Source: Chitinophaga pinensis
GTDB taxonomy: Bacteria; Bacteroidota; Bacteroidia; NS11-12g; UBA955
Length of the DNA stretch: 64,000 nucleotides
NCBI GenBank assembly: GCA_945877575.1
Contig: CAMDUE010000013.1
Location: 1 to 64,000, forward strand
Direction: 5' to 3'
The position numbers were made by a program, and so were the translations under genes. How positions within the stretch are numbered: the stretch's first letter is position 1; each line of letters starts with the position of its first letter. The notes beneath the pieces are model-generated. The model was not told where the DNA came from, did no database searches, and saw nothing but the letters and a program-made list of their open reading frames with translations. Shown piece after piece: positions 39,801-47,204 of the stretch.

Positions 39801-40113
39801 TTACGCTGCTAAAATGCCTTGGTTGCACCGCTTTGACTTGGCTATCTACCAAGATATTGCTCAAAAAATTGGTAAAACCGATCACAAATTGCAGTTGAGC
39901 GCTAACATCTTGAATATTGGTAATATGTTCAACTCTTCTTGGGGTATTGCTCAACAGTTAACCGTTAACAACGGTGCTGTTCTTAGAAGCAATACTGATG
40001 GAACTTACCAATTCAACGCTGTAAACGGTTTATTGCCAACCACCACCACTCGCGACGTTGTTAGCACTTCTTCTACTTGGGGAATGCAATTGGGCGTTCG
40101 TTACTTATTCTAA
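36844..40113 (+). CDS. Oar-like TonB-dependent receptor
   Basis: 1089 residues. Signal peptide 1-20 (SFAQ). A carboxypeptidase-regulatory-like domain lies at about 22-105 (SSIGGTILSGGNAVDNASVTA). The plug (about 115-240) has SKQLNTLPTINRSIDDF and NNFTIDGANFNNNFG-like sequence, and VQVNVSPYDVRQSNFTGAG is typical of the Oar group. A long barrel ends in the aromatic LGVRYLF. Such receptors import large substrates or display surface domains; the substrate is not evident. Strong use of a few codons (GGT, AAC, CGT) suggests high expression. It is monocistronic, with a clear terminator after the stop. Confidence 0.92.
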   Translation: MKKLALWMLVTFSAAISFAQVTTSSIGGTILSGGNAVDNASVTAVLTTTNATYATQTRQGGAFDIFNLQSGGPYTVTIAAPGQKTVTVENVYLILGENYKLDLDLATALEKIGEVSVITSRNSGTKSGANFNLSSKQLNTLPTINRSIDDFTKFTPQAGGNNSFNGRDGRFNNITIDGANFNNNFGLSTNNMPGGDAQPISLDAIEAVQVNVSPYDVRQSNFTGAGVNAITRSGSNKTEGSIYTFYRNEKMNGTKVGDVDLKETTTIPASTANIYGFRLGGAIKKDKVFYFVNFEQENRSFPGLTWEATDANSNPNNPNLSRVTKADLDAVRSHLKTKYGYETGEYQGLGNFATANTKFLGRIDWNISQKHKFSARYNYVINTNDQITNGTSAPTPRSTSNRWSNNAMSYENSLYNFTNTVGSLSLELKSNLNSKMSNQLLVTGTQVVDARGSNSTPFPFVDIKKDGDQYISFGYELFSWNNKVINNTYSFIDNFTYNTNKHTLTAGVAFDYMYVGNSFMRYGSTYYRYDSLSQFLNDAQPSVFAITYGYNGNKNPIAELGFGQAAAYVQDEYRLNKNFKLIGGLRLDLPIYFTEPLANAGFDKFTDASKPVFKNPEGENYMYDPSKWPTATPLISPRVGFNYDVKGDKSLVVRGGTGIFTGRLPFVWYTNQPTNGYGLQSTLELTKKADLDKYGITQFEADPVAYFDSFPTTPASLPATGGSYALVDPNFNFPQVWRTSLGVDFKLPGDIDFTADIIYTKSVRDIYQFDANMKPSDTMLFKGTEWERAGYSKPAARTYTGSVRNAIVLANTNQGSGLSFAATLSKTFKNGFNTFLSYSINNTRDITANPGSQAASAFQNNAITGTTLGDNQNTPFLSFSQYSTPHRVVGGLSYKFEYAKRFATTVSLTYAGFNAGRFNYTYSTDINNDGITGNDLIFIHESKDIKFKEYTASGKTITADEQAVAWDAYVAQDAYLSKNVGQFADRYAAKMPWLHRFDLAIYQDIAQKIGKTDHKLQLSANILNIGNMFNSSWGIAQQLTVNNGAVLRSNTDGTYQFNAVNGLLPTTTTRDVVSTSSTWGMQLGVRYLF

Positions 40114-40135
40114 CATAAACTTAAACGTTTAATAC

Positions 40136-40168
40136 GAGGCCGTCACTTTCGAGTGGCGGCCTTTTTTT
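40136..40168 (+). terminator. Rho-independent terminator after the TonB receptor
   Basis: Stem AGGCCGTCACT / AGTGGCGGCCT with TTCG loop and a T7 run. Confidence 0.9.
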
Positions 40169-40181
40169 GTATTTTTGAGGG

Positions 40182-40979
40182 ATGTCTGACTCCACTTCAA
40201 ACAAACCCCTCATTCTCATCAGCAACGACGACGGTATCACCGCTCCCGGAATTCAAGCCCTCATTTCAGTCATGAAAGAACTCGGCGAAGTCATTGTGGT
40301 AGCTCCAGATAAACCTCAAAGCGCTATGGGACATGCCATCACCATCAACCAAACCATTCGCCTCACCGAAGTACACATGTACGAAGGCGTTCGTGCCTTC
40401 CAATGCTCTGGAACTCCCGTAGATTGCGTGAAACTTGCCATTGATAAGGTACTTGATGGACGCAAACCCAACCTCATGGTATCTGGCATCAACCACGGCT
40501 CAAACGCCTCCATCAATGTCATTTACTCCGGTACCATGTCAGCAGCCGTAGAAGCCGCCATCGATGGAATGCCCGCCATCGGATTTTCCCTTTGCGATTA
40601 CCGCTGGGAAGCCGATTTCGAATCCATCAAACCCTACATCAAACAAATTGCCCACGAAACACTCAAAAGAGGTTTACCCTACGGAACCTTATTAAATGTC
40701 AATATCCCTGTCCCCAAAGAAGGAAATAAAATCAAAGGCATCAAGGTTTGCCGTCAAGCTCAAGCCAAATGGAAGGAAGACTTTGACGCCCGACAAGATC
40801 CTTTTGGACGCACGTACTATTGGATGACCGGTCAATTTGTAAACATGGACAAAGGCGAAGACACCGATCAGTGGGCCTTGAACAACGACTATGTATCAGT
40901 GGTGCCCACCATGTTTGACCTCACAGATCATCAGCGTATTTCCCTCATCAACCAATGGAATCTACAAACTCATGAATAA
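40182..40979 (+). CDS. surE: 5'/3'-nucleotidase SurE
   Basis: 265 residues, normal length. N-terminal LILISNDDGITAPGI holds the metal-binding Asp-Asp, VVAPDKPQSAMGHAIT the Ser/Asn ligand region, and VSGINHGSNAS the conserved GxNxG motif. The enzyme removes phosphate from 5'- and 3'-nucleotides in the cytoplasm with a divalent metal. The next gene's ATG overlaps its 3' end by 8 nt, and lpxB follows, so surE, a small membrane protein and lpxB form an operon. Confidence 0.95.
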   Translation: MSDSTSNKPLILISNDDGITAPGIQALISVMKELGEVIVVAPDKPQSAMGHAITINQTIRLTEVHMYEGVRAFQCSGTPVDCVKLAIDKVLDGRKPNLMVSGINHGSNASINVIYSGTMSAAVEAAIDGMPAIGFSLCDYRWEADFESIKPYIKQIAHETLKRGLPYGTLLNVNIPVPKEGNKIKGIKVCRQAQAKWKEDFDARQDPFGRTYYWMTGQFVNMDKGEDTDQWALNNDYVSVVPTMFDLTDHQRISLINQWNLQTHE

Positions 40980-41283
40980 TCAACCCCTGAAACCCAACGT
41001 TACTCACATTCTGGTTGGAATCATAGCAGCCCTGATTGTACCCCTTTTGGTGGGCATGCCCATTGCACATTTTCAAGGAATCCAACCCATTAATTTTCTC
41101 AAAGCCATCAAAAGCCTGAGCCAAGCATACAATACCGCATTTCAAGTAGGCGTAGTTGCCGATGTGGGAATTTTCTTCCTTCTGATGAAACAAGATAAAC
41201 ACATTTTCTGGGCACGCGGCTGGATGATTGGCACCATGATCATGGCCACCATCGCTCTGGTACGCATCGCCGAAGGATTCTAA
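40972..41283 (+). CDS. Small three-helix membrane protein, unknown
   Basis: 103 residues from the ATG at 40972, overlapping the end of surE by 8 nt. Hydrophobic helices are at about 13-33, 60-75 and 82-99 (MIGTMIMATIALVRIA). I do not recognise a family; small membrane proteins in this position between surE and lpxB occur in related genomes as far as I know, but no function is established. lpxB starts 12 nt downstream. Confidence 0.65.
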   Translation: MNNQPLKPNVTHILVGIIAALIVPLLVGMPIAHFQGIQPINFLKAIKSLSQAYNTAFQVGVVADVGIFFLLMKQDKHIFWARGWMIGTMIMATIALVRIAEGF

Positions 41284-41295
41284 ACCCCATTTCAG

Positions 41296-42456
41296 ATGTC
41301 TAAAAAGCTCTTTTTCTTTGCCGGGGAAGCCAGTGGCGATCAACACGCCTCGGTCATGATTCGCAAAATCAAAGAATCTGAGCCCGAAACCGAAATCGTT
41401 TGCTGGGGTGGCGACCTCATGCAAGCCGCCGGTGCCACCCTGCTCTCCCACTACCGCGACCGAAACGTCATGGGACTGATTGAAGTCCTCAAAAACCTGC
41501 GCACCATTCGCCGGTTCATGCATCAAGCCCGCGAAGACATCTTAAGCCACCGCCCCGACAAAGTCGTATTCGTTGACAATCCCGGTTTTAACCTTCCACT
41601 AGCCAAATACGCCCATTCTCTGGGCATCTTTGTACATTGGTACATTGCGCCCAAGGCCTGGGCCTGGAACGAAGGGCGCATCAAAACCATGCGCAAAGTC
41701 ATTGACCAGCTAGACGTCATTTTCCCCTTCGAAGTCGAATTCTTCACCTCCCGCGGCATGCCCTGCACCTACGTTGGCAATCCCACACTTGAGTTTATTC
41801 AAGGGTTTCGGGGATCGGGTTTCGGGGATCGGGGATCGGGTTTCGGGAGTCAGGTTTCGGGTGACAGGTTTCAGGGGGCAGACCACAGACCACGGACCAC
41901 CGACTACGGACTATCGACCACGGACCACGGACTTCAGACCATCGCATTGCTCCCCGGCTCTCGTCCGAACGAAGTCCAGCATTTGTTGCCCATCTTTGTC
42001 AAAACGGCACAGACTTACAGTCCAAGTGCGAGAATTGTGATAGCCGGTGCACCCAGCTTATCAGAAGATTTCTACCAAAACATCCTCACCGCACACCACT
42101 TAAACGCCGATATTTTATTTCAATCAACGCACCAGATATTACACGAGGCTTCTATTTCCGGGGGATATGCCCTGGTTGCATCGGGCACAGCTACCTTAGA
42201 AACCGCGTTGCATAGAGTCCCACAAATTGTAGCCTACCGTGTTCATCCCGTCACTTATTGGGTAGGAAAGTACCTTTTGGGTATCAAACACGTAAGTTTA
42301 GTAAACATATTACTGAAGCGCGAGCTCATAGAAGAGCACCTTCAAAACCTCACCATACCCACCCTCAGCGCCGCCCTCGACCGACTCTCAAAAAACCGCA
42401 CCCAAATTTTATCGGGTTACGACGAGTTGGAAGGGATGTTGACTCTTGGTCAATAG
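41296..42456 (+). CDS. lpxB: Lipid-A-disaccharide synthase with in-frame heptad-repeat insertion
   Basis: 386 residues. It joins UDP-diacylglucosamine to lipid X to form the lipid A disaccharide at the inner membrane. FFFAGEASGDQHAS opens the protein, DNPGFNLPLAKY and YIAPKAWAWNEGRIK follow, then VGNPTLEF; the C-terminal half resumes with IALLPGSRPNEVQHLLP and ends with ASGTATLETAL and the YRVHPVTYWVGKYLL stretch. Between the halves, residues about 170-215 are encoded exactly by 138 nt of 7-nt repeats (41803-41940) and read as RGSGFGDRGSGFGSQ and TTDYGLSTTDHGLQT. The insert replaces a normally variable linker between the two Rossmann-like halves. All key motifs remain, so the protein is probably active. 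Confidence 0.93.
   Translation: MSKKLFFFAGEASGDQHASVMIRKIKESEPETEIVCWGGDLMQAAGATLLSHYRDRNVMGLIEVLKNLRTIRRFMHQAREDILSHRPDKVVFVDNPGFNLPLAKYAHSLGIFVHWYIAPKAWAWNEGRIKTMRKVIDQLDVIFPFEVEFFTSRGMPCTYVGNPTLEFIQGFRGSGFGDRGSGFGSQVSGDRFQGADHRPRTTDYGLSTTDHGLQTIALLPGSRPNEVQHLLPIFVKTAQTYSPSARIVIAGAPSLSEDFYQNILTAHHLNADILFQSTHQILHEASISGGYALVASGTATLETALHRVPQIVAYRVHPVTYWVGKYLLGIKHVSLVNILLKRELIEEHLQNLTIPTLSAALDRLSKNRTQILSGYDELEGMLTLGQ
41803..41940 (+). repeat. Heptanucleotide repeat array R4 inside lpxB
   Basis: 19 full 7-nt units plus 5 nt: first GGGTTTC/GGGGATC types, then GGACCAC/CGACTAC types. Total 138 nt, divisible by three, so the lpxB frame is kept. Confidence 0.97.
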
Positions 42457-42460
42457 TAGA

Positions 42461-42629
42461 TGGTACATGGTACATGGTACATGGTACATGGTACTTGGTC
42501 CTTGGTACAAGGTACATGGTCTGTGGTCTGAAACCTGAAAACCGAAACCTGTTACCCGAAGCCCGAAGCCCGTCACCCGAAGCCCAAAACCCGAAACCCA
42601 GTACCAAGGACCATGTACCAATTACCATT
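42461..42629. repeat. Heptanucleotide repeat array R5
   Basis: Starts 4 nt after the lpxB stop. First TGGTACA units, then GGTCTGT, GAAACCT, GAAGCCC, GTCACCC and GAAACCC types, ending in GTACCAA/CCATGTACC. About 24 units before the tRNA-Pro gene. Confidence 0.95.
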
Positions 42630-42745
42630 TGCAAGATTGGTCAAAAGATGATACTTTTGCAGTCCCCAAAAGGGTGACCCGTTCCCATGCACCAAGAACA
42701 CCGGGATTAGGAGTATTTCTTTCAAGAAAAATCCAATCAAAAAAT

Positions 42746-46271: not shown

Positions 46272-47204
46272 ATGAAACTCCTCCTACCCATATTACTCTC
46301 CATCCTCCCAACCTCCCTCTACCCCCTACCCTCTACCAACTACCAACGACCCACCTCCCTCTACCCCCTACCCTCTACCAACTACCTTGTACCCCCTACC
46401 CTCTACCAACTACCATGTACCATCATCTCTTTCAACATCCGCTACGATAACCCCGCAGATGGCATCAACGCTTGGCCACAAAGAAAGTCCGCCATAGCAT
46501 CCTTTGTGAAAGAAAAAAATCCCGATTTCTTGGGCATTCAAGAAGGACTTTCGCACCAAGTAAAATACCTCGACTCCCAGCTCAGCGAAACCCATCGATA
46601 CATTGGCGTAGGCCGAGACCACGGCGATGAACGCGGCGAATATTGCGCCCTTTTTTACAACTTTCACCGCTATGAACTCATTACCATGGAAAACATTCCC
46701 ACCACCGTTTGGCTCTCGCAAACTCCGCAAATTCCATCCAAAGGATGGGACGCTGCACTGCCCAGAATCGCCACTTTTGGCCAATTTCGAGACCTCCAAA
46801 CCGGCAAAATCCTCCTCGTCATCAACACCCACTTTGACCATATAGGCGCCACCGCCCGTCAAAAAAGCATGGCCCTCATCTACCTAATCATCACGCGCCA
46901 TCAGCACTCTTTCGACGGGGTCATTCTTCTTGGGGACATGAACCTCCCTCCCGATTCCAAACCCATAAAATGGATTTCCAAGCGCATGCGCGACTCTTAC
47001 TTTGACCAAGATCCTCGCGGCACCTTTAACGGATTCAACCCTTTGATGCACGCCCTAAATCCCGGCCCCCGCATTGATTACATTTTCACCAGCAGAAACC
47101 TAAATGTCACTTCCTGCTCCGTCGACTACCGCTTCCGCACTGACAGCTCTTCCTTGGGATATTTATCTGATCACTATCCCGTGATAATAGAAATTAGTAA
47201 CTAA
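46272..47204 (+). CDS. Endonuclease/exonuclease/phosphatase (EEP) family protein, secreted
   Basis: 310 residues. A short hydrophobic start (MKLLLPILLSIL) is followed by about 37 residues encoded by 7-nt repeats (SLYPLPSTNYQRPTSLYPL type, about 14-50), and then the EEP domain begins at once: IISFNIRYDN (metal Asn), FLGIQEGLSHQV (Glu), VINTHFDHIG, LLGDMNLPPDS and the final LSDHYPVIIE. The domain cleaves phosphodiesters or phosphomonoesters with a divalent metal. The active-site set is complete. The repeat stretch may act as a Pro/Tyr-rich linker between signal peptide and enzyme. The gene overlaps the convergent ATPase gene by 4 nt. Confidence 0.88.
   Translation: MKLLLPILLSILPTSLYPLPSTNYQRPTSLYPLPSTNYLVPPTLYQLPCTIISFNIRYDNPADGINAWPQRKSAIASFVKEKNPDFLGIQEGLSHQVKYLDSQLSETHRYIGVGRDHGDERGEYCALFYNFHRYELITMENIPTTVWLSQTPQIPSKGWDAALPRIATFGQFRDLQTGKILLVINTHFDHIGATARQKSMALIYLIITRHQHSFDGVILLGDMNLPPDSKPIKWISKRMRDSYFDQDPRGTFNGFNPLMHALNPGPRIDYIFTSRNLNVTSCSVDYRFRTDSSSLGYLSDHYPVIIEISN
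46311..46422 (+). repeat. Heptanucleotide repeat array R6b inside the EEP gene
   Basis: 7-nt units (CTACCCC, CTACCCT, CTACCAA) arranged in a larger repeated block of about 50 nt present twice plus a partial third. Coding, residues about 14-50. Confidence 0.93.

Follow-up and report, generated by a model that had tools for sequence, protein, structure and literature searches.

LpxB, the lipid-A-disaccharide synthase, is a core and usually essential enzyme, and repeat DNA is usually kept out of core enzymes. Rickettsia palindromic elements are dispersed repeat DNA that core protein genes carry in frame and tolerate (Ogata 2000, 2002; reviewed in PMC10969869). Dispersed heptameric repeats, which are found mainly between genes, include GGGAATC in Xanthomonas and GGGGA(C/T)T in Nostoc (PMC4692102) as well as TAACTGA in Beggiatoaceae (PMC4679880); the first of these reports mentions lpxB solely as a landmark on a Nostoc map. 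In Haemophilus influenzae, heptads are located in the hmw promoters, where 11 to 24 heptamers are present and the number varies between isolates (PMC8262952). We searched the literature for earlier accounts of heptad arrays within lpxB and found none.

Here we analyze an array of 7-nt units within the lpxB gene of a 64,000-nucleotide stretch of DNA (the window), together with arrays at the same site in other genomes. Like Rickettsia palindromic elements, these lpxB arrays lie in frame within a protein gene, and intergenic arrays in the genomes studied here are often quasi-palindromic. Unlike those elements, they have no conserved element sequence or peptide, since both units and peptides differ between species; they are built of 7-nt tandem units, and one linker of one gene is affected repeatedly in different species. 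With dispersed heptameric repeats they share 7-nt units, many loci per genome, and a mostly non-coding distribution, features that place them in that class, and the first part of the window array is G-rich, like the G-quadruplex formers among such repeats. The lpxB array differs in that it is coding and in frame and that it recurs in a single gene. The hmw repeats also consist of 7-nt tandem units; in contrast to them, the lpxB array is coding, its perfect runs are short, and no length variation was seen in a sister pair (L090/L123).

A heptad array fills the linker between the two halves of LpxB

The features of the locus are as follows (G011 is a second species of the same genus as the window's genome, G000).

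41296..42456, + strand: lpxB (lipid-A-disaccharide synthase); a single open frame of 386 aa continues across the array
41296..41802, + strand: LpxB N-terminal half, ending in VGNPTLEFIQ; HMM match ends at 41802; 91% amino acid identity to G011
41803..41879, + strand: array part A, 11 GGGTTTC/GGGGATC-type heptads, G-rich on the coding strand
41880..41940, + strand: array part B, 8 RGACCAC-type heptads followed by AGACC
41941..42453, + strand: LpxB C-terminal half, from IALLPGSR; HMM match 41923-42354; 55% identity to G011
42447..42614, no strand assigned: second heptad array, which at its start overlaps the final codons and the stop of lpxB and, with the linker array, brackets the C-terminal half

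The original prediction placed a 138-nt heptad array in frame within lpxB, and both the periodicity and the single open reading frame bear this out. The array (41803-41940; 19 units plus 5 nt) has a lag-7 identity of 0.70, compared with 0.26 ± 0.04 in 2000 dinucleotide shuffles (maximum, 0.42), and identity peaks occur at lags 7, 14, and 21 only. It sits in frame between VGNPTLEFIQ and IALLPGSR, where the native interdomain linker stood, and encodes peptides such as GSGFGSQVSGDR and TTDYGLSTTDHGLQT (conceptual translation). The region between GNPT and IALLPGSR spans 51 aa; genus members that lack an array have approximately 21 to 27 aa here. As also predicted, the array stands in place of the linker while the motifs on both sides are kept: the N-half profile match ends directly before the array, the C-half match runs from 41923, and both halves are found.

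The protein matches PF02684 (E = 4.6e-75) and passes the equivalog cutoff of TIGR00215 (217.5 bits against 190.25), with both halves matched. Its best PDB match in a fold search is E. coli LpxB (5W8N; E = 8.6e-20), and the linker position aligns with approximately residues 168 to 187 of that enzyme. All motifs of both halves of known LpxB (TIGR00215, PF02684; E. coli 5W8N, 5W8S, and 5W8X) are shared by the window protein, which differs in carrying a 51-aa, array-encoded linker in place of one of about 20 aa. From these conserved motifs, we infer that the window LpxB is probably active and functional.

The AlphaFold2 model of the window LpxB (mean pLDDT, 88.5; pTM, 0.85) retains the strands and helices that flank the linker, and residues 177 to 201 fall below a pLDDT of 50; in the G011 protein (pLDDT, 85.2; pTM, 0.81), the low-confidence loop comprises residues 186 to 218. 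Modeling of the linker position, which the original prediction had named as a check, thus places the low-confidence loop of the window protein on the array residues, with both halves intact. In both proteins, the array-encoded residues are predicted to form a disordered loop that joins two well-defined LpxB halves. Between G000 and G011, dN/dS is 0.07 in the N-terminal half and 0.16 in the C-terminal half (dN, 0.44; dS, 2.8, which is saturated). The latter ratio indicates that the part of LpxB 3' of the array is still under selection.

Unrelated heptad arrays occupy the same linker across Bacteroidota

LpxB was obtained from 11 members of the genus. The original prediction looked to relatives for the insert, and the answer is divided: G011 carries an in-frame array at the same site (16 GAGTTTA/GAGGGGA units, 14 nt, and then 11 AARGACC units), but the nine members other than G000 and G011 have ordinary linkers. 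A class survey found another array, (GAGAGMA)n followed by AAACCCG-type units, in G092; within the small family of this genome, no other member has an lpxB linker array. Among 80 LpxB loci taken from named genomes without regard to the linker, arrays are present in L050 (from G011), L058, L064, L087, L089, L090, L094, and L115, and weaker heptad traces in L072, L096, and L123. The units of G092, L064, L087, L089, L090, L094, L115, and others are unrelated to those of the window. In one further family, all 110 LpxB genes fetched with a query consisting of the C-terminal half only read through the linker, and a codon-shuffle test at lag 7 gave P values of ≤0.01 for 17/110 linkers, versus 0 to 5 at control lags.

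Under a strict rule, a clear heptad linker array is present in 21 of 214 unique LpxB genes from Bacteroidota-type genomes, and a tree built without the linker requires at least 17 array changes (gains and losses counted together). All 21 array-bearing genes are in frame (one genome per species). LpxB linkers range in length from 20 to 77 aa. Most surveyed genomes are single metagenome bins, and array counts come from sampled stretches. Where such assemblies meet repeats, unit number can be wrong; an origin of the arrays in assembly or sequencing error is nevertheless extremely improbable, because the related G011 (public record JAMNXP010000008) has an in-frame array at this site, as do many unrelated genomes.

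Two sets of candidates were set aside. Long LpxB linkers in a related genus (g5) proved to be ordinary unique sequence and not heptad arrays, and two-piece LpxB matches in G108, G158, and G363 lack an array and were read as contig breaks.

Heptads also occur elsewhere in and around lpxB. One gene has them at a second site (L117:1989-2041), near residue 105 and before FYISP, and this loop holds a 13-aa insertion in the LpxB of G234. Arrays are found at the lpxB 3' end in L068 (5102-5159) and L121 (5094-5142). In G011, an ATPase-like gene (L050:5334-6526) that is absent from the window lies between lpxB and a tRNA.

LpxB is affected more often than other sampled genes

We compared LpxB with neighboring genes, a non-random gene sample that is possibly more conserved than average. 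With the sister-species entry omitted, the same scan found an interior heptad array in 8/79 lpxB genes and 1/384 neighboring ORFs (Fisher test, P = 4e-6; none at control lags in either set). A second family gave 13/108 for LpxB, compared with 0/30 for MurG and 0/110 for neighboring ORFs (P = 1.3e-5). The same linker has gained heptad arrays of differing sequence many times in Bacteroidota, and almost no other sampled gene has done so; LpxB is the most frequent target of linker colonization among the sampled genes. The single array among the 384 control ORFs is an in-frame heptad loop, SQHSSPITHDSSLTT, in a CysQ-like gene (L125:43-855; named from its sequence only).

A permissive linker may not by itself be sufficient for this pattern, because MurG has a comparable GT-B fold and no array in this small control. 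One alternative is that the repeat-encoded linkers are themselves selected, with length or composition tuning LpxB through domain motion or through dimer or membrane contact. The strength of the recurrence in LpxB relative to MurG and neighboring genes would fit such a role, as would the purifying selection that persists on both halves; however, the encoded peptides have no common composition (GSGFGDR, ESLEGRV, REQREER, LTTHDSR, and KVKNQK), linker lengths are very varied, and arrays are absent from close relatives. On balance, we regard a tuned linker as improbable.

Several further heptad arrays are coding. In the window, the array at 46292-46440 falls within an ORF (46272-47204), after the signal peptide and before an Exo_endo_phos domain (PF03372), and the product is probably a secreted enzyme with array-encoded N-terminal residues. 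In G011 C1, one open frame joins a SpoU methylase to a lipobox and a thioredoxin-like domain, with a heptad-array linker after the lipobox (L152:7631-8827; 47631-48827 of C1), and an array of approximately 300 nt is translated after a predicted membrane helix (L150:18449-19342). An ice-binding beta-roll profile gives a weak match to the peptide of the latter, which probably stems from the repetitive nature of this peptide. A further array, at G000:C3, lies in a secreted-type protein. The topology of these G011 and G000 proteins is read from the sequence. Coding arrays at linker-like places in other genes support the colonization of unconstrained linkers as a general principle.

A length-dependent switch at the lpxB array is not supported

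The original prediction raised the possibility of a slippage-prone switch. In such a switch, gain or loss of 7-nt units would shift the frame and reversibly turn LpxB off in part of the population. The arithmetic behind this proposal is correct: 7 is not a multiple of 3, gain or loss of one or two units would yield truncated products of 245 to 308 aa (245 or 308 aa for a single unit), and a change of three units would restore the frame. Heptanucleotide repeats also cause phase variation elsewhere, for example in the H. influenzae hmw promoters (PMC8262952).

The other evidence speaks against a switch. None of the 21 array-bearing genes is out of frame, which with one genome per species gives a 95% upper bound of approximately 13% of array-bearing species. 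LpxB is also a core and usually essential enzyme. Phase-variable loci are marked by a long perfect tract capable of slipping; in the window array, no perfect 7-nt run exceeds 19 nt, and the longest run has a median of 18 nt across 21 lpxB arrays. In G000 and G011 together, perfect runs are shortest in the coding arrays (median, 16.5 nt, versus 32.5 nt for non-coding arrays; Mann-Whitney P = 0.001). Finally, the repeat part is equal in length in the sister pair L090/L123. Because array-bearing LpxB genes are all in frame, coding runs are the shortest, and the array residues lie in a predicted disordered loop, the switch lacks support, and we consider it very unlikely, although rare switching could escape a survey of one genome per species. 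The other half of the prediction, that the array is selected to stay in frame, is supported by the intact frames (21/21 array-bearing genes and 110/110 in the further family) and by purifying selection on the C-terminal half. We dropped a candidate preference for frame-keeping 21-nt repeats within coding arrays, and make no such claim, because low-purity intergenic arrays behave alike.

Heptad arrays are scattered through the genome

The sampled parts of G000 contain approximately 33 heptad arrays, including that of lpxB, most of them intergenic. In 455 kb of this genome, 17 arrays were counted, with none at control lags; in the sampled parts, scans at control periods of 5, 6, and 8 to 13 nt were empty for G000 and yielded two weak arrays for G011. 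Among intergenic arrays, the usual order is G-rich units first and C-rich units last, and folding tends to be stronger than in shuffles (median z, −2.55). A hairpin reading of the lpxB arrays was rejected: the window array has an RNA folding z of +0.55 and lpxB arrays have a median of −0.1, against the genomic −2.55, so they lack the palindromic, foldable character of Rickettsia palindromic elements.

The 12-mers of an lpxB array recur more often in the other arrays of its own genome than in those of the sister genome (33% versus 12% for G000; 22% versus 4% for G011), a pattern that could reflect a common mutational bias instead of copying. The genome of L266 is not alone in having units of the pattern AAGGARC. 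As a submechanism within the permissive-linker explanation, slippage or templated repair may have turned the linker DNA into heptads where it stood, with nothing copied from another locus. Three array-bearing linkers have kept the native length (L239, L246, and L248; 23 aa each), and array starts and ends fall at nearly identical native codons, both of which favor this origin; units that are closer to the genome's own arrays than to those of the sister, and the many two-part arrays of complementary composition that resemble intergenic ones, weigh on the other side. We hold this local origin to be plausible but less than probable. The lpxB units could have been copied from other loci or could have grown at the site itself.

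A possible recombination seam in the window

G000 and G011 share 84% DNA identity over 39901-41786, a stretch that ends 16 nt short of the lpxB array; homology resumes at 42652, 38 nt past the second array. The C-terminal half of lpxB, which lies between the two arrays, is therefore a non-homologous block in G000. At the protein level, identity to G011 drops from 91% in the N-terminal half to 55% in the C-terminal half, and the C-terminal half of G011 is 81% identical to that of G004. The break so close to the array suggests a recombination seam in this case, at which a swapped C-terminal half would have been joined via heptad arrays. Survey-wide, however, array-bearing LpxB proteins are not clearly more mosaic than others (2/19 versus 12/165), and we found no general link between arrays and mosaicism; we therefore treat the seam as a single case. 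Since, in addition, G004 and G007 have no array, a seam is an unlikely account of the arrays. We give similarly little credence to a broader version, in which the LpxB linker is a true hotspot that arrays enter preferentially, through targeting or selection, and the arrays serve as seams for exchanging LpxB halves between lineages.

Discussion

The probable explanation of these observations is that genome-typical heptad arrays have recurrently colonized a permissive LpxB linker, where they are tolerated DNA held in frame by purifying selection and not an on/off switch. An array of the kind scattered mostly between genes would have come to fill the linker, unconstrained and exposed to solvent, that joins the two Rossmann-like LpxB halves, to be translated as a putatively disordered linker of 46 aa. 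Purifying selection would keep the frame because out-of-frame alleles are lost, and interruptions of the repeat may build up because pure, slippage-prone versions are removed. LpxB may be affected so often because its linker tolerates nearly any length (20 to 77 aa) and sequence.

The uptake of arrays by one linker of an essential enzyme, independently in many lineages and always in frame, amounts to a natural replicated experiment. The lpxB arrays bear on the conversion of repeat DNA into protein sequence, the permissiveness of linkers, and the origin and spread of heptad arrays. They also advise caution, in that a non-triplet repeat within a gene need not mean a switch.
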